Source: Acuticoccus sp. MNP-M23 (GTDB lineage Bacteria; Pseudomonadota; Alphaproteobacteria; Rhizobiales; Amorphaceae). Taken from it: a DNA stretch of 64,000 nt. Shown here piece after piece: positions 7,776-56,390 of this stretch. The stretch lies in contig NZ_CP133480.1 of the NCBI RefSeq assembly GCF_031195445.1, forward strand, positions 248,001 to 312,000. Reading direction: 5' to 3'. The position numbers and the translations under genes were made by a program. Under the pieces are notes generated by a model. That model had not been told where the DNA came from and did not search any database. It saw only the letters and a program-made list of their open reading frames with translations. How positions within the stretch are numbered: position 1 is the stretch's first letter; each line of letters begins with the position of its first letter.

Positions 7776-9116
7776 ATGAACTTCAAAAGCACTGTGAGCG
7801 CACTTGCGCTCGCCGCCACGTTCACCGCCGCACCGGCGATGGCGCAGGACTGGTCGCTGGAAGAAGCGGCAAAACCTTATGCCGGCACTACAGTCGACGC
7901 CGTGTTCCTGCTGCGCCCCGGCTATGAAGCCGGCGAGAAGATGCTGGAAGACTTCACCGCGCGCACCGGCATCGAGGTCAACCTCATCAAGCTCCCCTAC
8001 GAGAATGCGCTGGGCGAGCAGGTCCGCGACTTCGTCGCCGGCGGCGACCTCGACGTCGCGCTGATCGACCTCGTCTGGATCGGCAACTTTGCCGAGAATG
8101 GCTGGATCGCACCCATCGACGAGATCAAGTCCGAGTTCCCGGGCGTGGTCGATCCCAACATCGACATGGACGACTTCTTCCCGCTCATCATGGAAGCGTT
8201 CGGCGCCTGGAACGGCGTCCAGTACGGCCTGCCGTTCGACAATTATTCCGGCCTGATGTTCTACAACAAGTGCATGCTGGAAGAAGCCGGCTACGACGGC
8301 CCGCCGAAGACCTGGCAGGAGGTGATGGACGACTACGGTCCCAAGCTCACCAAGGACGGCAAGTACGCCTACGCCCTCCAGTCCAAGCGCAACGAGACCC
8401 AGTCGGCCGACAGTTTCGCCCGCTTCCTGTGGCCGTTCGGCGGTTCGTTCCTCGACGCGGACTTCAAGTCCAACCTCAACTCCGAGGACAGCCAGAAGGG
8501 CCTTCAGTTCCGCCAGGACCTGATGAAGTACATGCCCGAAGGCATTGTCGCCTATGACCACGCCGAGGCGATCAACGCACTGGCGCAGGGCGACGTGGCG
8601 TTCCTCACCGAATGGTCGAGCTTCTATTCGACGCTGAAGGATCCCAACACGTCCACCATCGTCGACTGCCTTGGCGTGGCACCGGAGCCCGAAGGCCCGG
8701 CGGGCCGCAAGCCGGCTCTCGGCGGCTTCTCCCTTGCCGTTGCCGAACAGGCCGACGACGACGAGAAGGCCGCGGCCTGGCTGATGATCCAGTACCTCAC
8801 CTCCAAGGAAAACGCGAAGACCTACCTTGAGCTTGGTGGCGTCCCGGGCCGCCAGTCGGTCTACAAGGAACCCGGCGTTGCCGAGGAGTACGCCTTCGTC
8901 GAGCCGCTGGTCGCTTCCTGGCAGGACGGTGTGCCGGAATTCCGTCCCCGGTTCGCCGAGTGGCCGGAAATCACCGAGATCGTGCAGGAGTGGGGCACCA
9001 AGATGATGCTCGGCGACGTGTCGGTCGAGGAAGGCTCCAAGGAAATCGGCACCCGCATGGAAGAAGTGCTGGACGACGCCGGCTATTATGACGGCGACAA
9101 GCCGCTCGCCCAGTAA
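7776..9116 (+). CDS. sugar/polyol ABC transporter substrate-binding protein (family 1)
   Basis: A 446-residue periplasmic binding protein with a clear signal peptide (residues 1 to about 23, ending in AMAQ). The body has the family-1 extracellular binding-protein layout, including a GDLDVALIDLVWIGNFAENGW segment and a long C-terminal lobe ending in a helix-rich region. It captures a sugar or polyol and delivers it to the two permeases downstream. The start at 7776 is set by the strong GGGAGGA ribosome site 5 bp upstream and by the signal peptide; the frame continues upstream without sense. It is followed by two strong hairpins (9130-9190) that should raise its mRNA level relative to the permeases. 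Confidence 0.94.
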   Translation: MNFKSTVSALALAATFTAAPAMAQDWSLEEAAKPYAGTTVDAVFLLRPGYEAGEKMLEDFTARTGIEVNLIKLPYENALGEQVRDFVAGGDLDVALIDLVWIGNFAENGWIAPIDEIKSEFPGVVDPNIDMDDFFPLIMEAFGAWNGVQYGLPFDNYSGLMFYNKCMLEEAGYDGPPKTWQEVMDDYGPKLTKDGKYAYALQSKRNETQSADSFARFLWPFGGSFLDADFKSNLNSEDSQKGLQFRQDLMKYMPEGIVAYDHAEAINALAQGDVAFLTEWSSFYSTLKDPNTSTIVDCLGVAPEPEGPAGRKPALGGFSLAVAEQADDDEKAAAWLMIQYLTSKENAKTYLELGGVPGRQSVYKEPGVAEEYAFVEPLVASWQDGVPEFRPRFAEWPEITEIVQEWGTKMMLGDVSVEEGSKEIGTRMEEVLDDAGYYDGDKPLAQ

Positions 9117-9129
9117 CACCGCAACAACC

Positions 9130-9156
9130 GAGCCGGGCTCACCCAGCGCCCGGCTC
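9130..9156 (+). terminator. hairpin after binding-protein gene
   Basis: GAGCCGGGC and GCCCGGCTC form a perfect 9-bp stem with a 9-base loop, 13 bp after the stop. There is no T-run. It probably protects the 3' end of the binding-protein transcript or acts with the next hairpin. Confidence 0.6.
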
Positions 9157-9168
9157 ATCTCCCGACTT

Positions 9169-9190
9169 GGGCGGCGGCACGCCGCCGCCC
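9169..9190 (+). terminator. terminator/attenuator between binding protein and permeases
   Basis: GGGCGGCGG and CCGCCGCCC form a 9-bp G+C stem with a CACG loop, followed by ATTCTTTTCC. This looks like a leaky intrinsic terminator that would let only part of transcription reach the permease genes, a common way to overproduce the binding protein. Confidence 0.65.
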
Positions 9191-9274
9191 ATTCTTTTCC
9201 TTCCGGCGGCACCCGCCGTTCCTTCACTTCGATCCGGCGGAACAGGTCCGCCGAACGGCCCGCGGAGGGCGCCA

Positions 9275-10165
9275 ATGACGCAAGTCTACGGTCGCGTGTC
9301 CCGCGGCACCATTTTCGCTTTTCTGGGCCCGGCGGTCATTTCGCTGGCGGTCATCGGCATCGTCCCCCTTGGCTTTGCGGTGTGGACCAGCCTGCGCGAC
9401 TACAACCTCACCAAGCTTGCCCGCGAAAAATTCATCGGTTTTGAAAATTACGCGACAGTCCTGACAGACGGCGCGTTCTGGGATGCGATGGGCCGCACCT
9501 TCACGCTGCTGGCCATCGCATTGCCGATCCAGATTGCGCTCGGCCTCGGCATCGCGCTCATCTTGCACAAGCCCGGCCTCGGCTACCTGAAAACGCTGAC
9601 CCGCCTTGCGCTGGTGGTTCCGATGGCGACCACCTACGCGGTGGTCGGCCTCCTCGGCCAGGTGATGTTCAATCTCAAATATGGCGTCATCAACCAGATC
9701 CTCGGCTGGATCGGCCTCGGCCCTTATGACTGGATCGGCGATCCTGATCTCGCCTTTGCCGCCATCGCCTTCTGGGACGTGTGGCAGTGGACGCCGTTCT
9801 GCACGCTCGTGCTGCTCGCCGGTCTCACCACCGTCCCGTCCGAGATCGAGGAAGCGGCGCGGCTGGAAACCAAAAGCCCGTGGACGATCCTGCGCCACGT
9901 CCAGCTTCCTTATCTCTTCCCCGCGCTGACCGCGCTCCTGATCTTGCGCACTGCGGACGTCCTCAAGCTCTTCGACATGGTGTTCACCATGACCAGAGGT
10001 GGTCCCGGCTCTGCCACCGAGTTGATTTCGCTCCTGATCCAGCGTGTCGGTTTCCGCGCGTTCGACCAGGGGCTTGCATCGGCGCAGGCGGTGATCCTTC
10101 TTATCATCACCATTGTGCTGGCGCGCCTTTACATCCGCTTCTTCTACCGGGAGGTGGACCGATGA
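9275..10165 (+). CDS. sugar ABC transporter permease 1 (MalF/UgpA type)
   Basis: A 296-residue inner-membrane protein with six predicted transmembrane helices. It carries the EAA coupling loop (EIEEAARLETKSPWTILRHV followed by LPYL) that docks on the ATPase. It forms the translocation channel with the second permease. The start at 9275 is preceded by GGAGGG and gives the normal short cytoplasmic N-terminus (MTQVYGRVSRG); the open frame upstream overlaps the terminator hairpins and is rejected. Its last four bases overlap the next gene (ATGA). Confidence 0.93.
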   Translation: MTQVYGRVSRGTIFAFLGPAVISLAVIGIVPLGFAVWTSLRDYNLTKLAREKFIGFENYATVLTDGAFWDAMGRTFTLLAIALPIQIALGLGIALILHKPGLGYLKTLTRLALVVPMATTYAVVGLLGQVMFNLKYGVINQILGWIGLGPYDWIGDPDLAFAAIAFWDVWQWTPFCTLVLLAGLTTVPSEIEEAARLETKSPWTILRHVQLPYLFPALTALLILRTADVLKLFDMVFTMTRGGPGSATELISLLIQRVGFRAFDQGLASAQAVILLIITIVLARLYIRFFYREVDR

Positions 10166-11082
10166 GCTCCGACACCCTGCGCGAGCCCCAGAGCGCCGGC
10201 GCGCCCCCTGCCCCGGCCCCCGCCCCGGCGCGTGCTGCCGCCGGCCGCCGCACCTCGGCCAACCCCGGCAGCCGTGGCGGCGCCTGGGGTCAGATCCTGC
10301 TTCTGGCGCTCGTCATCCTGTTCTGCATCTTCCCGTTCTACTGGATGGTGACGACCAGCCTCAAAACCCAGATCGTGGCGCTCCAGTCGCCGCCGGCCTG
10401 GGCGTTCACCGCCACGCTCGCCAACTATGTGGAAGTGCTGTTCGAAGATGCGGTCAGCGCCACCTTGATCAATTCGCTCATTGTCGCGGTCTGCACCACG
10501 TTGCTTGCCCTGGCGCTCGGCACACCGGCCGCCTACGCGCTCGCAAGGTTCCAGTTCCGCGGCAAGACCGACCTTTGGTTCTGGTTCATCACCAACCGGA
10601 TGGTCTCCCCGGTGGTGCTGGCGCTGCCCTTCTTCCTCATCGTGCGGATGCTGGGGCTGCTCGACACCCACATCGCGCTGATCCTCATCTACCTGACCTT
10701 CAACCTTCCCATCGTCATCTGGATCTGTACGGACCAGTTCCGCTCGATCCCCAAGGACCTCGACGAGGCAGCCTTGCTGGAAGGGGCATCGCAATTCACC
10801 ATCTTTCGCAAGATCTGCCTGCCGCTTGCCATGCCCGGCGTGGCGGTAAGCGCGATCTTCTCGTTCATCTTTTCGTGGAACGAGCTGATGTTTGCCCTTG
10901 TTCTCACACGAAGTGATGCCAAGACTGCACCGGCAATGGCAGTGTCCTTCATGGAGGGCTACAGCCTCCCCTACGGCAAGATCATGGCCACCTCGACATT
11001 GATTGTGATTCCCGTGATTGTGTTTGCTCTCATTGCCTCCAAGCAACTCGTGCGCGGTCTCACCATGGGCGCGGTCAAATAA
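10162..11082 (+). CDS. sugar ABC transporter permease 2 (MalG/UgpE type)
   Basis: A 306-residue inner-membrane permease. After an unusual Ala/Pro-rich N-terminal tail of about 45 residues come six helices and the EAA loop (DLDEAALLEGASQFTIFRKI followed by LPLAMPG), then the conserved SWNEL region. It pairs with permease 1. The start is fixed by the ATGA overlap at 10162 and by a GGGAGG ribosome site 7 bp upstream. Several codons for the proline tail give the local sequence low complexity. Confidence 0.93.
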   Translation: MSSDTLREPQSAGAPPAPAPAPARAAAGRRTSANPGSRGGAWGQILLLALVILFCIFPFYWMVTTSLKTQIVALQSPPAWAFTATLANYVEVLFEDAVSATLINSLIVAVCTTLLALALGTPAAYALARFQFRGKTDLWFWFITNRMVSPVVLALPFFLIVRMLGLLDTHIALILIYLTFNLPIVIWICTDQFRSIPKDLDEAALLEGASQFTIFRKICLPLAMPGVAVSAIFSFIFSWNELMFALVLTRSDAKTAPAMAVSFMEGYSLPYGKIMATSTLIVIPVIVFALIASKQLVRGLTMGAVK

Positions 11083-49435: not shown

Positions 49436-49840
49436 TCAGGCGGCGACGAATCGCTCGAAATCCGACGGCCATTCTGGCGCCTCGTCGGCGCGCAGCATTG
49501 CGACGGCCTTCAAAGTTTCGACCAAGGCGGCCGGGTCCACCGGCTTGCGCAGCAGGCCGATGGCATAGTCGGTGTAGTCGAGCGCGAGGTCGCGCTGGCC
49601 TGACATGAAGATTGCAGTCGCGCCATGGTCTTTCACCAGCGATGCAGCGATGTCCGGTCCGGTGCGGCCGTCCGCCAGGTCGATATCGACGAGGGCGCAC
49701 TCGCACCCCTTGCCTGAAACGAGCTTCATGGCGTCAGCGGCAGTATTCGCGGGGCCCAGAACGTCGAATCCGGCGTCCTCAAGCTCCTCAACCACCATCA
49801 TCGCGACAAGCGCATTGTCTTCCACCACCAGAACTCGCAT
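49436..49840 (-). CDS. single-domain response regulator (CheY-like)
   Basis: A 134-residue lone receiver domain. Acidic pocket residues follow MRVLVVEDN, the phospho-acceptor is Asp52 (ALVDIDLADG), and the conserved lysine is in GLLRKPVD. There is no output domain. It is 63 bp downstream of the HWE kinase gene on the same strand, so it is probably phosphorylated by that kinase or passes phosphate on as a shuttle. The short C-terminal tail (EWPSDFERFVAA) may dock a partner. Confidence 0.9.
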   Translation of the reverse strand: MRVLVVEDNALVAMMVVEELEDAGFDVLGPANTAADAMKLVSGKGCECALVDIDLADGRTGPDIAASLVKDHGATAIFMSGQRDLALDYTDYAIGLLRKPVDPAALVETLKAVAMLRADEAPEWPSDFERFVAA

Positions 49841-49903
49841 CGATCCCCACCTCTCAAGATGGTTTAACGCGCGACGGCTCGGGTCTGTTGCCAACTTTAT
49901 CGC

Positions 49904-50920
49904 TTATGACGAATTTGCAATCGAAACGCGCATCGCAAAGAACAGTCCATCAGAGCGATAGTCGAAGCTGGTATTTCCGGCGAGCGCCGCCACCGCGGAG
50001 CGAATGAATCGAACCCCGTAACCATCTTTCTCTGGTGCGATGATTTTGTTTCCGGTTGTTTCTTCCCACTGCAAATCAATGAACGTCGAATCGACCGGGT
50101 CTTGCTGCCAGGTAATCTTTACGGTGCCACCGCCCTTGGACAGTGCCCCGTACTTCACCGCGTTGGTGGCAAGCTCGTTCAGGACAAGCGCCAGTGACAA
50201 GGCATGTTCCCGGTCGATCGCCACCGCATCGCCTTCGATGACAATATGCCCCTCGTCGCCGGTGTAGGGGGCGACGATGGCACCGACCAGCTCCCGCAGC
50301 ACGGGCTCGGCCCTGTCTGCATCGAACAAAAGCTCATGAACCTTGGACAAGGCGCGCAATCGGCCTGAGAATTTTTCGGAGAAATCGTCCAGCGTTTCGC
50401 TCTGCCGCATCGTCATGCGGTAGATTGCGTGGAAGGTGGCGACCGTGTTCTTCACCCTGTGGTTCAGCTCACGCCGCAGTTCGAGCTGCAATTCCAGGTG
50501 GTCACGCATCTCCAGCTGCTTGCGCCGGGTGCGCGTGGCATTGAGCACCGCGGTGCGAAATTCGAGCGGACGGACCGGCCGGTGCAAAATGGTGACAATG
50601 CCGTCGGCCAGAAGGCCGGAGAGCCGCGCGGTGACGGCGGCCGCCTCCTGATCGCCGTCGAGCAGGAGAACCATTGCAAAGCGTGACCATGCAGGCTGCC
50701 GGGTGATCACCGCATCCAGCGTTTCCAGCAATTCCTCCGTGAGGCCCTCCTGCGTGCACACGAGGACGGTTCCGGCCTGAAACAGGCGCGGGTCAGCACC
50801 GCCGTCCATCTCGGCCGAAGCGATGCCGTCCTGTGCAAGCACCTTGGCGATCATCTGCGCATCGTTGCGGATGGGCGCGCGGATCAGAAACAGGATGGAG
50901 GCGTCTGCAAGGTCACTCAT
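49904..50920 (-). CDS. HWE/HisKA_2 family sensor histidine kinase with receiver-like N-terminus
   Basis: A 338-residue soluble kinase. Residues 1-130 resemble a degenerate receiver or ANTAR-type sensor domain (ILFLIRAPIRN, VLVCTQEGL, ILHRPVRPLEF) but lack a clear phospho-acceptor aspartate. The dimerisation box is LRRELNHRVKNTV with His154, and the HATPase domain has LVLNELATNAVKYG and the glycine motif region EKDGYGVRFIRS. No membrane segment. It starts 16 bp after the kaiC stop, indicating co-transcription, and precedes the lone receiver. KaiC-linked HWE kinases occur in other alphaproteobacteria. Confidence 0.9.
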   Translation of the reverse strand: MSDLADASILFLIRAPIRNDAQMIAKVLAQDGIASAEMDGGADPRLFQAGTVLVCTQEGLTEELLETLDAVITRQPAWSRFAMVLLLDGDQEAAAVTARLSGLLADGIVTILHRPVRPLEFRTAVLNATRTRRKQLEMRDHLELQLELRRELNHRVKNTVATFHAIYRMTMRQSETLDDFSEKFSGRLRALSKVHELLFDADRAEPVLRELVGAIVAPYTGDEGHIVIEGDAVAIDREHALSLALVLNELATNAVKYGALSKGGGTVKITWQQDPVDSTFIDLQWEETTGNKIIAPEKDGYGVRFIRSAVAALAGNTSFDYRSDGLFFAMRVSIANSS

Positions 50921-50936
50921 GCCCGCTGGCTGTTCA

Positions 50937-52391
50937 TCATTGCAGAACTGCGGAGCCGTCGGTCGGCGGCGGCGGATTGAACGAATCAATCCGCACACCC
51001 TTGCCGTCGATGATCAGCTCGCGCACTTTCAGGTCATGCGGCCCGTGGCGCTTTTTCACCACCGTCACCGTCCGGCGGATTATGCCCGGTGCCTCTGCCA
51101 TCCGCAAAAGCAGAACCGAATCGCCGAGATAGCTGACATCGAGGTCGGACGACTGCTCATGGCCGAGCAGACCGTGCTGCGCCACGATCAGGATCGTGAG
51201 AACACCGCGCCGCGCGATGTACTTCAGCAGGGAATGCATCTGGATGACCGCTTCCGCGCTTTCCGGCAGCGAGCTCAGATAGCCGGTGAAGCTGTCGATG
51301 ACGATGACGCCCACCTTGAGATCGTCGATTGCCTTGCGCGCGATGGAGGCAAACTCGCCCGGCGAGACCTCTGTCGGCGTGAAGTCGCGCAGGAGGAGTT
51401 TGCCGGAGTCATGATATTGCCGCAGCTCGATGCCGAGACCTTCGCAGCGGCGGAAAAACGTCTCCCGCCGTTCCTCGAACAGGAACATGCCAACGGTTTC
51501 GCCCCGCTTCAGTGCAGCCTCCACATAGAGCGAGGCAAGGGTCGACTTGCCGGTGCCCGACTGGCCGACAAACAGCGACGTGGTGCCCGGATCAAGCCCG
51601 CCGCCCAGCATCGTGTCCAGTTCCGCAATACCGGACCGGACGAGATTGTCGCTGAGCCCCTGCTCGTAGCCGAGGGTCGGCACGATCCGCGGGTAGACGG
51701 TAACGCCCGCCTCCTCGCGAATGCTCATGTCGTGGTAGCCGTCGGCAATGGGCGTTCCGCGCATCTTCTTGATCTCGATGCGCCGGCGCGCCGAGCCATA
51801 TTGCGGCAGATTCTTTTCGAGGCGGATCAAGCCGTGCGCGATATTTTCCAGCTGGTTGTCGGAAAGGTCGTCCTGGTTGTGCTCGGTGTCGATCAGAAGC
51901 GCCGCGGTGTCCTCGTCGGCAAGGAAGTTCTTGAAGCCGAGCACCTCCCGGCGGAAGCGGTCCTTGTCGGACGCGAGAAGGCGCACTTCCAGCAGCGAAT
52001 CGTAGACGACCCGGTGCGGATTGAGCGTTCGCACCAGCTTTTCCACCGCATCACGGGTCCGGTCGAGCCGAAGGTCCGAGGTCTGGAAGATCGTCTGCTC
52101 GGTATACTCGGACGCCGCATCGCCGCTGATGAGCGACTGGATGGTGATCCCTTCGAGATCCCACCCGTGCGACCGCGCGATCTGCCGCAGTTCCTGTTCC
52201 GACTGGGAGAGCGAAACGTAGAGCACAGATTCGCCGTTGGCGACGCCCTCACGCAGGAACTGAAGCGCCAGCGTGGTCTTGCCGGTACCGGCAGCACCGC
52301 GCAGCAGATAAAGGTGCGCGCCCGGCAGGCCGCCCCCCATGATGCTGTCGAGGCCGGGCACACCGGTCTTGATTCGGGTATCGTTGTCCAA
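50937..52391 (-). CDS. KaiC-like double-domain ATPase
   Basis: A 484-residue protein with two RecA-like KaiC domains. Walker A motifs are GAAGTGKT (32-39) and GQSGTGKS (276-283). The C-terminal domain keeps the catalytic glutamate pair (Glu306-Glu307), but the N-terminal domain has Ser62-Gln63 where clock KaiC has Glu-Glu. The autophosphorylation site reads Ser420-Tyr421 instead of Ser-Thr. No kaiA or kaiB is in the window. The neighbours are an HWE kinase and receiver downstream and a complete Rsb module upstream, suggesting that it serves as a signalling switch rather than as a circadian clock. Confidence 0.93.
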   Translation of the reverse strand: MDNDTRIKTGVPGLDSIMGGGLPGAHLYLLRGAAGTGKTTLALQFLREGVANGESVLYVSLSQSEQELRQIARSHGWDLEGITIQSLISGDAASEYTEQTIFQTSDLRLDRTRDAVEKLVRTLNPHRVVYDSLLEVRLLASDKDRFRREVLGFKNFLADEDTAALLIDTEHNQDDLSDNQLENIAHGLIRLEKNLPQYGSARRRIEIKKMRGTPIADGYHDMSIREEAGVTVYPRIVPTLGYEQGLSDNLVRSGIAELDTMLGGGLDPGTTSLFVGQSGTGKSTLASLYVEAALKRGETVGMFLFEERRETFFRRCEGLGIELRQYHDSGKLLLRDFTPTEVSPGEFASIARKAIDDLKVGVIVIDSFTGYLSSLPESAEAVIQMHSLLKYIARRGVLTILIVAQHGLLGHEQSSDLDVSYLGDSVLLLRMAEAPGIIRRTVTVVKKRHGPHDLKVRELIIDGKGVRIDSFNPPPPTDGSAVLQ

Positions 52392-52557
52392 GGCCTGAAG
52401 CTCCGTTGTTCGTTCTCACCAGGGAACCACCGGGCGCAGTTTCCCTCGGGTAGACCGCTTCAAACTCGAACCATCTCGCCCCAATTACGAAGAGGGCCGT
52501 GCGCAAGAAAGTTCCGATTTCGGGAAATCCTGCAGAGAGGCTGAGAAAAATATCGGT
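52392..52557. promoter_or_regulatory. leader between kinase and kaiC, possible internal promoter
   Basis: A 166-bp gap in an otherwise tightly packed operon. On the minus strand it contains GGGAA...TTCCC inverted arms, but no promoter that I can state with confidence. It may allow kaiC to be expressed separately from the Rsb genes. Confidence 0.3.
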
Positions 52558-53712
52558 CTAGTCCGTTCCGGCCGATGCGAACATAATCCGTACCCGAAAA
52601 CCATCATCGGAATCCACGGTGATGCGCCCCGAATGTCGCGACGCCATGGCGCGGATCATCCGCCAGCCGAGTGAGTTGGAGCGTTCCGGCCGTTCCACGC
52701 CCGGCGGAAGCCCCGGTCCGTCGTCCCACACCTCCAGGGTGAAGGCGTCGGGCATCTCGTGGTCCGGCTCGGTCACGACCTTGATCCTGACGGTGCCTTC
52801 GTCGCGGTCATTGAAAGCGTGCTTCATGGCATTGGTCATGAGTTCGGCCAGAATGAGGCCGAGATCCACCGCAACGCCAGCCGCCAGCGGCAGGTCATCG
52901 CCCTCGACGCTGACGTTGATTGTCTTGGCAGTGCCGCTGAATGCTGCGGCCGAGCGGTCCGCAACGTTGCGCAGGAATGGCAGGATGCTGACCTGCTTGC
53001 CGTCCTCGGCGCGTTCCAGCTGCTCGTGGACCGCGAGGATCGCCTGCATCCGCAATCCGAGTTCGGACAAGGCGTCCTTGGTTTCCGCGTGGGTCGCCGC
53101 ATTTTGCGACAGCCGCACGAGGCTGCCGATCAGTGCCAGATTGTTGCGGGTGCGATGGTGCACCTCGCGGATCAGGAGATCGCGTTCCTGCAAGGCCAGC
53201 ATCAGCTCGCGATTCTGCTGGACCAGCGCTTCAGTCGGGTCCGCCTTGTTGAGGCTGGCAAGGCTGTCGGTTGCCGCGCTGACCAGCGCCGAGAGCTCGT
53301 TGCCCTTGTTTGCGGACTGGAAGGTGACGTCAATCTCGGTCCCGTCGGCGGTGCTGTGAATCTCGAACGTATCTGCGATCCGGTGGGCGCCCCGCAGGCC
53401 GAGGCCAAGGCCCGTCGCACTTGGCGCGGCAACACCGCTCAGCACGTCTTCAAGATGCTGCACGCCGGGCCCGGTGTCGCTGACCGTCACGAGCAAGGCC
53501 ACGAAATGGTTCTTTTCCACCAGCGCAAGAACCACCCGCCCGCCGCCGCCATGGACGATCGCGTTGCGGGCAAGTTCGAGCATCGCCGTCACGATCCGCG
53601 TCTGACTGAACGTCGCAAAGCCCAGAACCTCGGTCACGGCGCGCCCGACCTGGCGCACGCGCGGAATATCCTTGTCCGATTCCAGCCTTATCGTGATCAG
53701 TCGCGTGGGCAT
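52558..53712 (-). CDS. dual-ATPase sensor histidine kinase (RsbT-like + HisKA_2)
   Basis: A 384-residue soluble protein. Residues 1-135 are a complete anti-sigma-type GHKL domain (MLELARNAIVHGGGG, SDTGPGV and GLGLGLRGAHRI). After a linker come the HisKA_2 box LLIREVHHRTRNNL (His185/186) and a second GHKL domain (LILAELMTNAMKHAF and WDDGPGLPPG). It combines a switch-protein kinase with a histidine kinase. It starts 6 bp after the PP2C gene and so belongs to the Rsb operon. It could link stressosome release to the HWE/receiver phosphorelay downstream. Confidence 0.88.
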   Translation of the reverse strand: MPTRLITIRLESDKDIPRVRQVGRAVTEVLGFATFSQTRIVTAMLELARNAIVHGGGGRVVLALVEKNHFVALLVTVSDTGPGVQHLEDVLSGVAAPSATGLGLGLRGAHRIADTFEIHSTADGTEIDVTFQSANKGNELSALVSAATDSLASLNKADPTEALVQQNRELMLALQERDLLIREVHHRTRNNLALIGSLVRLSQNAATHAETKDALSELGLRMQAILAVHEQLERAEDGKQVSILPFLRNVADRSAAAFSGTAKTINVSVEGDDLPLAAGVAVDLGLILAELMTNAMKHAFNDRDEGTVRIKVVTEPDHEMPDAFTLEVWDDGPGLPPGVERPERSNSLGWRMIRAMASRHSGRITVDSDDGFRVRIMFASAGTD

Positions 53713-53718
53713 CCGGGG

Positions 53719-54741
53719 TCAGTCGCCTGCTGTCTTTTGTGCTGCGCGTTTCGCAACCATGATGCATGCATCGTCTGAGCCGCGCTCGTATTCGCCGATG
53801 ATGGCAGCCGCAATGGTGAGCGGGCGGCGAAACATCAGTTCAGGCCGGTCGGCGAGGTTGCGCAGTGTCCGCACGCCATCGGAGTGGAGGATCAGCACGT
53901 CTCCGGCGCCGAACGCCACGGTCTCCTCGTGCACGCTCGAGCGCTGGGGTGCGCCAAGGCGCCCGTCGCGCGAGGCCAGGCGGCGGATTGGCGTGCGCAC
54001 GGCGCACACCAGGCCGCTGATGTTGCCAACCCCGGCGTAGGTGAGGGTCTCGCCTTCATTGTCCACCGCCGCGGCCATCGCCACCGCGCCGCGGGTGTCG
54101 GTGATCGCTTCGGAGACCCTCGCCAGAAGTACCTGCGGAGACCCTTCACCCCGTTCGAAGGCTGCCATTGCGCCTTCAGCCGCGCGCATCGCTTCGGGAC
54201 CATGACCAAGGCCGTCACAGACCAGAATGTCGGTGGCCGAACCCCGCGGGCGGACGGACCAGCCGTCCCCGCAAACCGCCTGGCCGGGGTGGTTCAGCGT
54301 TAGAACGGCGACATCCAGCGGACGGGCGGTGTAGGCCTCACCACGGGCGCGGATCTGCGCGGTGATGATGGTCCCCTCCCCGGCACGGGTGAGAATGTCG
54401 AGGTCATCGGACTGGCGTTCGATGGCGCCGAGCCCGATGCCGGCCGAGCCGCCGGTGGAGACACCGTCGGTCATCATCCGGTCGATGTTCTCGATGCCGT
54501 TGCCCTTGTCGATGGCGACGATGGCAAGCGTCCGAGGCCCGGCCCATGCTGCCGGGCTCACCAGAAGGCGGCCGCCGCCGGCATGGCGGACCATGTTGGT
54601 CGCAACTTCGGTGGTGACGATGGCGGCGCGTTCTGCGTCCGAGGCATCGAGCCCGAGGTCGAGCGCGACGGCGCGGGTGCGGCGCCGCGCCTCCATGACC
54701 GCACTCTTCTCCTTGACGTCAAACCAAGCGCCCAAACGCAT
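53719..54741 (-). CDS. RsbT-like ATPase fused to SpoIIE/RsbX-type PP2C phosphatase
   Basis: A 340-residue fusion. Residues 1-130 are an RsbT/RsbW-type GHKL domain (TTEVATNMVRHAGGG, DKGNGI and GIGLGAIERQ). Residues 140-340 are a PP2C domain related to RsbX, with metal-binding VCDGLGHGPEA and LILHSDGVRTL. In Bacillus the separate RsbX dephosphorylates stressosome proteins to reset the system. The fused ATPase domain suggests docking or feedback control. Its ATG shares one base with the rsbT stop. Confidence 0.9.
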   Translation of the reverse strand: MRLGAWFDVKEKSAVMEARRRTRAVALDLGLDASDAERAAIVTTEVATNMVRHAGGGRLLVSPAAWAGPRTLAIVAIDKGNGIENIDRMMTDGVSTGGSAGIGLGAIERQSDDLDILTRAGEGTIITAQIRARGEAYTARPLDVAVLTLNHPGQAVCGDGWSVRPRGSATDILVCDGLGHGPEAMRAAEGAMAAFERGEGSPQVLLARVSEAITDTRGAVAMAAAVDNEGETLTYAGVGNISGLVCAVRTPIRRLASRDGRLGAPQRSSVHEETVAFGAGDVLILHSDGVRTLRNLADRPELMFRRPLTIAAAIIGEYERGSDDACIMVAKRAAQKTAGD

Positions 54742-55151
54742 TATGGAATCCCGACCATTGTTACCGTCGTTCCCTGGCCGGCCACACTGTCCAGCGAAAA
54801 ACTCTCGACCAGCCGTCTGGCGCCACCAAGGCCGCGCCCCATGCTGCCCGCGGTGCTGTAGCCGTCTTCCATGGCACGGTCGACGTTCGCAATCCCCGGC
54901 CCGCGGTCGGTGCAGACAATCATCACACGCGGCTTGGCGCTGTCGACATATACGGTCAACGTGCCGCCACCGCCATGCATGACAGCGTTCCGGGCAATCT
55001 CGCTGACGGCGGTGACGAATCTCGTCTTCCGGCTCGCACGCGAGCCCAGAGTGTCCATGGCGTTGGAAACCGACTTGCGGGCACGCGCCACGTCCCGGTC
55101 CGTCTCAAGCGGGATCGATCCGAACAGAACGCCGGCCGGCTGCGCGGTCAC
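54741..55151 (-). CDS. rsbT: stressosome switch kinase RsbT
   Basis: A 136-residue anti-sigma-like serine/threonine kinase. ATP-binding boxes are SEIARNAVMHGGGG, CTDRGPGI and MGRGLGGARRLV. In Bacillus, RsbT phosphorylates RsbR and RsbS on the stressosome, is then released and activates a downstream partner. It overlaps rsbS by 4 bp (ATGA). No RsbU or sigma-B homologue is in the window, so the partner it activates here is not the classical one. Confidence 0.93.
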   Translation of the reverse strand: MTAQPAGVLFGSIPLETDRDVARARKSVSNAMDTLGSRASRKTRFVTAVSEIARNAVMHGGGGTLTVYVDSAKPRVMIVCTDRGPGIANVDRAMEDGYSTAGSMGRGLGGARRLVESFSLDSVAGQGTTVTMVGIP

Positions 55152-55504
55152 TGCTCGGAACGAAGATGTTGCATCGCGTGGTTGACGGAAAGGGCGGTGC
55201 GCATGTCACCAAGGTTCATCCCGAGTTCCACCAGCGTCATCGCAACGGCCGGCCGCATCCCCACCACATAGGGAACGGCTGCCAGAATTTTTGCAACCTT
55301 CGCCAGCTGCCCCAGGATGCGGCCGACAAATGTGTCGACAACGTCCAGACCGGAAATGTCGATGATGACGCCGCGCGCGTTCATGCGGACGATGTCTTCG
55401 GACAGGCGGTCCTGCAGGTCGGTGATGTCGGTATCGGTGATATCGTCGTGGATCGAAACGAGAAGGATCTCTTCGACCACGAAGATCGAATATGCCTCAG
55501 CCAT
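55148..55504 (-). CDS. rsbS: stressosome STAS protein RsbS
   Basis: A 118-residue single STAS domain. The phosphorylatable loop is IIDISGLDVVDTFV with Ser51 at the position of Bacillus RsbS Ser59. It forms the inner shell of the stressosome with RsbR. The start at 55504 overlaps the rsbR end by 8 bp. A longer frame upstream is inside rsbR and is rejected. Confidence 0.93.
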   Translation of the reverse strand: MAEAYSIFVVEEILLVSIHDDITDTDITDLQDRLSEDIVRMNARGVIIDISGLDVVDTFVGRILGQLAKVAKILAAVPYVVGMRPAVAMTLVELGMNLGDMRTALSVNHAMQHLRSEQ

Positions 55505-56390
55505 TGCGCGGTTTGCCGAGCTTCGGACCATCCACGACGGTGAGCCCGCTGCGGCCGAAGGCGTAGAGCAGCGCGCCCTGGATGCTGGGCCGGGTGACGA
55601 TGTCGTCCACCTCCACGCCCAGCTGCACCATGGTCTGTGCAATGCGCGGGCTGATGCCGCTGATGATGCACTCCGCGCCCATCAGGCGAACCGCAGACGC
55701 CGTGCGCAACAGATGCTGGGCCACCTGGGTGTCCACCGTCTGCACGCCGGTAATGTCGACAATCACCATCGCGGCCTGATGCCGAACGATGGATTCCAGA
55801 AGGTTCTCCATCACGTCCTGGGCACGGCCGGAATCGAGCGTCCCGATCAGCGGGAGTGTCAAGATGCCGTCCCACAGCTGGATGACCGGGGTGGACAGCT
55901 CCATCAGCTCCGCCTGCTGGCGGCGGATGATCGCCTCGCGGCCGGTCACGAACACCTCGGTCGTGTGGAGCGCAAACGCGTCGATTACCCGCGAATAAAG
56001 GGTGATCTGCTCGGTCAGCTCCACCGGGTCGTCGGCGTAGGTCCCCTTCAGCCGCTCGAAGATGGGCCGCTTCAGCGCCAGCACGAACGAGGCCATCTCC
56101 GTCGGCGTGACACCGCGGTCGATCCGCTCGTTGGTGATGGATTCGAGATCCCGCCGGAGGTCGGCCCAGTCTTCGTCGTTGAAATCAAGCTGTGCGCCCG
56201 ACGCTGCGCGTTTGATGCCGTTGGCAATGGCGCGCAGGAGATGACCCGTCTGCTGCCGGCCCTCGGCCTCGGAAAACAGATCAGCGCGGCGAACGCCTTC
56301 GTCCTTCTGGGTATCGATCCAATCCGTCAGCACGGCATCGAACTGGTCGCTCAGAAGCCGGGAGGCCTCGCGGATAGCGCTAGAATTCAT
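55497..56390 (-). CDS. rsbR: stressosome co-antagonist RsbR
   Basis: A 297-residue protein. The helical N-terminal region (about 1-160, RsbRD-type) would protrude as a sensor turret, and the C-terminal STAS domain forms the core. The phosphorylation loop is IVDITGVQTVDT with Thr214, equivalent to Thr205 of Bacillus RsbRA; a second candidate threonine is Thr184 in LPLIGTLD. No globin or PAS sensor is apparent, so the signal is unknown. First gene of the array. An 18-bp inverted repeat lies 85 bp upstream. Confidence 0.93.
   Translation of the reverse strand: MNSSAIREASRLLSDQFDAVLTDWIDTQKDEGVRRADLFSEAEGRQQTGHLLRAIANGIKRAASGAQLDFNDEDWADLRRDLESITNERIDRGVTPTEMASFVLALKRPIFERLKGTYADDPVELTEQITLYSRVIDAFALHTTEVFVTGREAIIRRQQAELMELSTPVIQLWDGILTLPLIGTLDSGRAQDVMENLLESIVRHQAAMVIVDITGVQTVDTQVAQHLLRTASAVRLMGAECIISGISPRIAQTMVQLGVEVDDIVTRPSIQGALLYAFGRSGLTVVDGPKLGKPRNG

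Follow-up and report, generated by a model that had tools for sequence, protein, structure and literature searches.

The stressosome pathway of Bacillus leads from RsbR, RsbS and RsbT through RsbU to SigB, and its output protein RsbU is activated by the binding of RsbT (PMC12143880, in the part available to us). Gram-negative bacteria, among them Vibrio vulnificus, carry related modules in which genes in the order rsbR-S-T-X are followed by a kinase/receiver module; most of the downstream proteins lack an RsbU_N domain, and no interaction with RsbT was found for the Vibrio kinase, according to the accessible portion of that study (PMC9237108). The array studied here lies in a 64,000-nucleotide stretch of Acuticoccus sp. 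MNP-M23 (contig NZ_CP133480.1, positions 248,001 to 312,000; hereafter the window). It comprises eight genes, all on the minus strand, whose places, given in an earlier note made from the DNA letters, were borne out by open reading frames and Pfam (Table 1). We read the array as a tandem of two independent modules, with a probability of roughly 0.7: an Rsb half that, judged by its sequence, holds a full set of stressosome genes with a two-component output built in, and a KaiC half with a kinase and a receiver of its own. The Rsb half is a variant of the Gram-negative rsbRSTX-plus-two-component kind, and its new part is a conserved output kinase headed by an RsbT-like domain.

The earlier note had described this kinase as a dual-ATPase enzyme. 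Two ATPase domains are indeed present, and the correction concerns the N-terminal one, which is RsbT-like and fused to a HisKA_2 kinase. This head is 34% identical to the RsbT of the window (pairwise E 6e-19). In a tree of 71 domains (26 RsbT, 21 phosphatase heads, 19 kinase heads and 5 kinase ATPase domains), the kinase heads all fell on one side of a branch with support 99/93, recovered in 98% of 200 bootstrap trees, and RsbT did not form a single group (2 changes). An 81-row tree placed RsbT and the kinase heads together (99/99), the heads of the phosphatases and the ATPase domains of the kinases lying apart; four kinase heads were labelled RsbT in that tree and were relabelled by gene coordinates for the 71-domain one. 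On these sequence relationships, the N-terminal domain looks like an RsbT rather than a copy of the kinase's own catalytic domain. The residues of the head's ATP site (N50 and D79), those of the His box H-R-x-x-N (H186, codon 53155-53157, with R187 and N190) and the catalytic N294 showed no variation in alignments of 12 and of 15 kinases; the box itself characterises the kinase family as a whole. No RsbU_N domain was matched by Pfam in the window kinase. Its AlphaFold model (mean pLDDT 80, pTM 0.47) had as best solved match the kinase domain of EL346, which we take to be a HisKA_2/HWE-type kinase; Brucella LOV-HK came sixth and eighth. HisKA-type kinases, too, bear the head in this place of the cassette; their type was recognised by Pfam at two loci (L087, L225) and by the His box at three (L088, L199, L226).

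The fusion and its place in the gene order are conserved. A contig scan of the best 80 of 208 relatives, which finds only kinases that carry both of its search motifs, gave 14 full-length relatives, all alphaproteobacterial, including Parvularcula, Pacificimonas, Aurantiacibacter, Phaeobacter, Actibacterium, Qipengyuania, Croceicoccus and their relatives. The kinase closes the cassette in all 14, and the order rsbR-rsbS-rsbT-phosphatase-kinase was read in 13 of them; the contig of the 14th (L106) begins inside rsbT. In a class sample of 385 genomes, the RsbT-headed kinase is the fifth gene in 7 of 13 further rsbR genomes (G340, G104, G214, G357, G187, G069 and G283; in G214 and G187 the kinase runs off a contig end). 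Ten more rsbR loci, from the order of G357, showed the head in four members of the same genus and in two others. Full-length kinase matches occur in 60 plasmid records (58 Phaeobacter, one Salipiger, one Alloyangia), in one of which the cassette was read (L224). Plasmid pS26_248 of Phaeobacter piscinae is one carrier of the cassette, and a headed kinase also follows rsbRST and the phosphatase in Sphingomonas aliaeris (L225) and in the betaproteobacterium Caballeronia (L226). Altogether, 31 loci, several of them from close relatives and not all independent, have an RsbT-headed kinase after rsbRST (the window, L041, L083-L088, L095-L108, L194-L199 and L224-L226). The succession rsbR-rsbS-rsbT-(RsbT+PP2C)-(RsbT+HisKA_2 kinase), at 56390-52558, is a conserved stressosome cassette.

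Some loci depart from this arrangement. The cassette at L089 ends in a headless kinase, and L092-L094 gave no match to the RsbT-headed kinase. Two loci, L090 and L200, have two rsbT genes and a phosphatase that is matched only beyond its RsbT-like head; their kinases show sub-threshold RsbU_N matches, another output wiring. At L091 (4418-7393), a PAS-HisKA-type kinase next to a stressosome-like locus matches RsbT weakly at its N terminus, possibly a sign of a degenerate head.

The upstream genes have the features of a stressosome: an RsbR with sensor and STAS domains, an RsbS with a single STAS domain bearing a Ser/Thr, and an RsbT with an intact ATP site, whose N-box Asn is present in all 38 aligned sequences. 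By homology, RsbR, the sensor, and RsbS would form the core. The phosphorylated residues had been placed at Ser51 of RsbS and Thr214 of RsbR, and alignment to solved proteins moves them, since both are the Ser/Thr of a D-I-S/T-G strand end. The equivalents are Thr58 in RsbS (codon 55331-55333), at the phosphoacceptor-loop position opposite the Ser of D-S-F in solved RsbS, and in RsbR Thr221 (codon 55728-55730) together with a second site, Ser187, both aligned with phosphoacceptors of the RsbR chains of solved stressosomes (7o0i, 7b0u). We assume, from the Bacillus proteins, that these aligned positions are the ones phosphorylated. They hold Ser or Thr throughout: the RsbS column has T at 19 and S at 18 loci (38 loci were examined, among them the window, and 37 gave a match), the Thr221 column T at 34 and S at 3, and the Ser187 column S at 35 and T at 2 (37 loci). 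The short overlaps of 1-8 bp claimed within the Rsb part are there, as 8, 4 and 1 bp for rsbR/rsbS, rsbS/rsbT and rsbT/phosphatase. The RsbT-headed kinase was assigned to the Rsb block because its start lies 6 bp past the end of the phosphatase gene.

Compared with described systems, the Rsb half shares with the Gram-negative modules the gene order and the downstream kinase/receiver module. Those have downstream proteins with or without RsbU_N and a single-domain RsbX, whereas in the window the kinase and the phosphatase are each headed by an RsbT-like domain (PMC9237108, accessible portion). The window RsbR also has an RsbRD_N match, unlike the description there, a comparison made by text, and HATPase_c in the figure of that study could include headed kinases. 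With Bacillus the window has in common RsbR, RsbS and RsbT with aligned phosphoacceptors, and it differs in that the output would be a histidine kinase. As the earlier note had it, sigma-B, RsbU, RsbV, RsbW and KaiA are absent, here from the Pfam matches of the eight array proteins; no genome-wide search for them was made. The parts of the stressosome literature that we searched hold no mention of an RsbT-headed histidine kinase, subscription works (e.g. the 2005 RsbRST survey) being outside that scope.

These observations suggest how the module could work. The STAS core would be the docking site of RsbT and of the kinase's RsbT-like head alike. Upon stress, phosphorylation of Thr58 in RsbS and of Thr221 and Ser187 in RsbR would release RsbT and the kinase, and the freed kinase would autophosphorylate at His186 and hand its phosphate on to a response regulator. 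Resetting of the core would fall to the RsbT-PP2C protein. The two-component kinase is thus the likely output of the stressosome, as far as gene content and domain architecture tell, and the KaiC-HWE-receiver half would be a separate signalling unit.

Table 1. The eight genes of the array and the gap between its halves, listed from rsbR downstream (positions in the window)
Feature	Positions	Strand	Remarks
rsbR	55497..56390	-	RsbRD_N sensor domain 1.3e-19 and STAS 2.8e-16 (Pfam)
rsbS	55148..55504	-	Single STAS domain (Pfam); best solved match RsbS of 6qcm, E 7e-20
rsbT, switch kinase, GTG start	54741..55151	-	HATPase_c_2 1.9e-13 (Pfam)
RsbX-like phosphatase (PP2C/SpoIIE) with N-terminal RsbT-like domain	53719..54741	-	SpoIIE 4.9e-12, HATPase_c_2 3.1e-10
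RsbT-headed histidine kinase	52558..53712	-	RsbT-like head (~1-135), linker, HisKA_2, catalytic ATPase domain
Intergenic gap of 166 bp, boundary of the two modules	52392..52557	-	Two sides not adjacent at any other locus examined
kaiC, two-domain KaiC-family ATPase, TTG start	50937..52391	-	KaiC 3e-78 (Pfam); TTG at 52391 is the most likely start
KaiC-partner HWE histidine kinase	49904..50920	-	HWE_HK 2.4e-23 (Pfam); N-terminal domain without Pfam match
Single-domain receiver, third gene of the kaiC triad	49436..49840	-	Response_reg 8.4e-11; same place in congener and Sinorhizobium

Several points weigh against this interpretation. Its support comes from sequence and gene order. No RsbT-headed kinase was matched in the other six of the 13 class-sample rsbR genomes, nor in four of the ten loci from the order of G357, and therefore the head is not required for stressosome output in general. 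The two modules are in tandem and co-directional, and the 166-bp gap before kaiC showed nothing resembling a promoter or a terminator, so that read-through into kaiC, and co-transcription across the gap, could occur. Finally, KaiC and RsbR co-occur: in the class sample this KaiC family is in 20 genomes, RsbR in 14 and both in 6, i.e. KaiC in 6/14 rsbR genomes versus 14/371 of the others (odds ratio 19, Fisher 2e-5; 1.7e-4 without the window genome; genome size uncontrolled in all these statistics). The last two points would favour the circuit proposed in the earlier note, in which RsbT acts on a GHKL kinase or on KaiC, with the lone receiver as the way out for the signal. The GHKL part stands to the extent that the kinase closes the cassette and has an RsbT-like head; the KaiC part fares badly. 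The neighbourhoods, counted over fetched stretches of 3.3 to 21 kb, are not co-conserved, an outcome that the note itself had named as refuting its model: kaiC is at 0/39 other rsbR loci and rsbR/rsbS at 0/25 other kaiC loci, on which evidence we rejected KaiC as a stressosome partner. In the five other genomes with both, rsbR and kaiC are on different contigs or 0.8 Mb apart (G292), although in G214 rsbR lies on a contig of just 4 kb, off whose ends a neighbour could lie. All three genes of the triad are present without rsb genes in a congener (G002, without an rsbR match) and in Sinorhizobium meliloti, and the receiver belongs to it. A control CheB/CheR-type kinase shows a comparable, somewhat weaker excess (6/14 rsbR genomes versus 22/371, odds ratio 12, Fisher 2e-4) and is also in 8/20 KaiC genomes versus 28/385 overall. 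The co-occurrence looks like a trait of signalling-rich genomes, by which it is not fully explained away, and we rejected it as evidence of coupling. That RsbT acts on KaiC or the HWE kinase, with the signal leaving through the lone receiver, is thus very improbable, and as far as examined, KaiC next to a stressosome is a neighbourhood peculiar to the window genome.

Another alternative keeps the kinase in the stressosome circuit and changes the role of its head, which would be a decoy or a heterodimer partner for free RsbT instead of docking on the core. A free rsbT is retained in the cassettes beside the headed kinase, and binding by RsbT is what activates RsbU in Bacillus (PMC12143880, same part). 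Against this, the head keeps the ATP-site residues of RsbT, as expected if it acts on STAS proteins, and we consider the decoy role unlikely. A further proposal concerns the target: the RsbT-headed kinase would feed the general stress response by phosphorylating PhyR, directly or via a single-domain receiver, and so draw EcfG off NepR. At one locus (L085, genome G357), the end of a full-length PhyR-family gene lies 15 bp upstream of rsbR, the two being co-directional. In the genus of G357, labelled g263, a PhyR gene on the strand of rsbR directly precedes it in 5/5 genomes recovered by the search of the order, at 308 to 310 bits versus a family cut-off of 240; each genome yields three PhyR matches with E no worse than 1e-40, of which the cassette PhyR scores best and the weakest is under the cut-off in 4/5. 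The window genome has a phyR at 4.06 Mb (362.6 bits versus 240) with nepR- and ecfG-like genes beside it, assigned by reading translations. In Sphingomonas, H-R-x-x-N kinases of the HWE/HisKA_2 type phosphorylate PhyR and SdrG in vitro (PMC5898713, in the part available). On the other side, the linkage is of one lineage: beyond the five of g263, whose RsbR are 95-99% identical, no full-length PhyR is at any other of the 39 rsbR loci in the fetched stretches, and no nepR or ecfG was found by tblastn within 1.5 kb of the g263 PhyR genes. The phyR of the window genome is 3.8 Mb along the contig from the cassette (~1.2 Mb if circular). Using what we take to be the EcfG promoter consensus, we found 0 sites in the window (1.3 expected by chance), and 0 by one pattern and 1 by a looser one upstream of 27 cassettes, not above shuffles; the divergent nepR/phyR region of the window genome does have an EcfG-type motif. 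Two arguments were discarded: PhyK is the best NCBIfam match of 7/7 HisKA_2-type kinases scanned, all far below the cut-off, and likewise of 10/10 control HisKA_2 kinases, six from outside Alphaproteobacteria; the H-R-x-x-N motif marks the whole kinase family. The described PhyR-NepR-EcfG response has kinases of the same H-R-x-x-N family, and in one genus its phyR stands first in the cassette; a stressosome input to it was not found in the portions of the literature searched. The stressosome may, by its gene order, feed PhyR in g263, and could feed PhyR-NepR-EcfG in the window genome; the proposal is a tentative one, somewhat less probable than its negation. On evidence from that one genus, a PhyR-type regulator is a better candidate for the output than the lone receiver.

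The KaiC half has relatives of its own. Its genes are closely spaced, the HWE kinase 16 bp after kaiC and the receiver 63 bp after the kinase. The Sinorhizobium plasmids pSymA and pRmeGR4a carry the same three genes in the same order (kaiC, sensor kinase and response regulator), 58%, 38% and 37% identical over the matched parts (for KaiC, residues 10-482 against the pSymA protein), and no rsb genes in the 15-17 kb read. The kaiC2-kaiR2 pair of Methylobacterium extorquens AM1 (PMC8069551, in the part available) also joins a two-domain KaiC-family gene, with one conserved phosphorylated Ser, to an adjoining regulator gene; the window triad has an extra receiver, and the two are likened by gene content. 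The N-terminal domain of the HWE kinase is encoded directly downstream of kaiC at 14/25 other loci, making it the partner seen most often; a full-length query found the same partner at L043 and L061. Its residues 1-140 had no Pfam match at E 1. A single-sequence model of the kinase was poor (pLDDT 51) and gave this domain an alternating strand-helix outline, receiver-like, possibly that of a pseudo-receiver that would read KaiC.

Membership of a Kai clock is not indicated: no profile match for KaiB, whose absence had been claimed, was found anywhere in the genome, and of the Ser-Thr pair of CII phosphosites the Ser is kept and the Thr position is Tyr in the window. Across the 25 kaiC loci, the first position is always Ser or Thr and the second never Thr. 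In CI, the window KaiC reads Ser-Gln where the solved KaiC 8zn5 has Glu-Glu, as do those of the congener and Sinorhizobium; other members have Ser-Glu or Ala-Glu where readable. The same genome has a second kaiC at 3.79 Mb (L064, 7699-10185), with a further HWE kinase of the KaiC-partner kind after it. This kaiC is split between two overlapping frames (8739-9527 and 9103-10185), which gives it a frameshifted look; gene decay or an error in sequencing may account for this.

The surroundings of the array show a variable site, a finding compatible with joint as well as separate arrival of the two modules. The flanking genes exonuclease-DUF-htpG are kept in 5/5 congeners fetched, htpG and the DUF gene in 7/7 relatives fetched (of 9; two contigs were too short), lysE is close to htpG in 2, and the seven flank stretches of relatives contained neither an rsb nor a kaiC block. 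The G+C content of the block (0.62-0.67) is without a clear break from that alongside (0.65-0.68).

Overall, the RsbT-like head of the kinase offers a direct physical hypothesis for the signal output of Gram-negative stressosomes. An operon that starts with phyR points to a specific candidate target of the stressosome kinase. It is conceivable, if still doubtful, that Alphaproteobacteria join a Bacillus-type stressosome to the PhyR-NepR-EcfG switch via a kinase with its own RsbT docking head.

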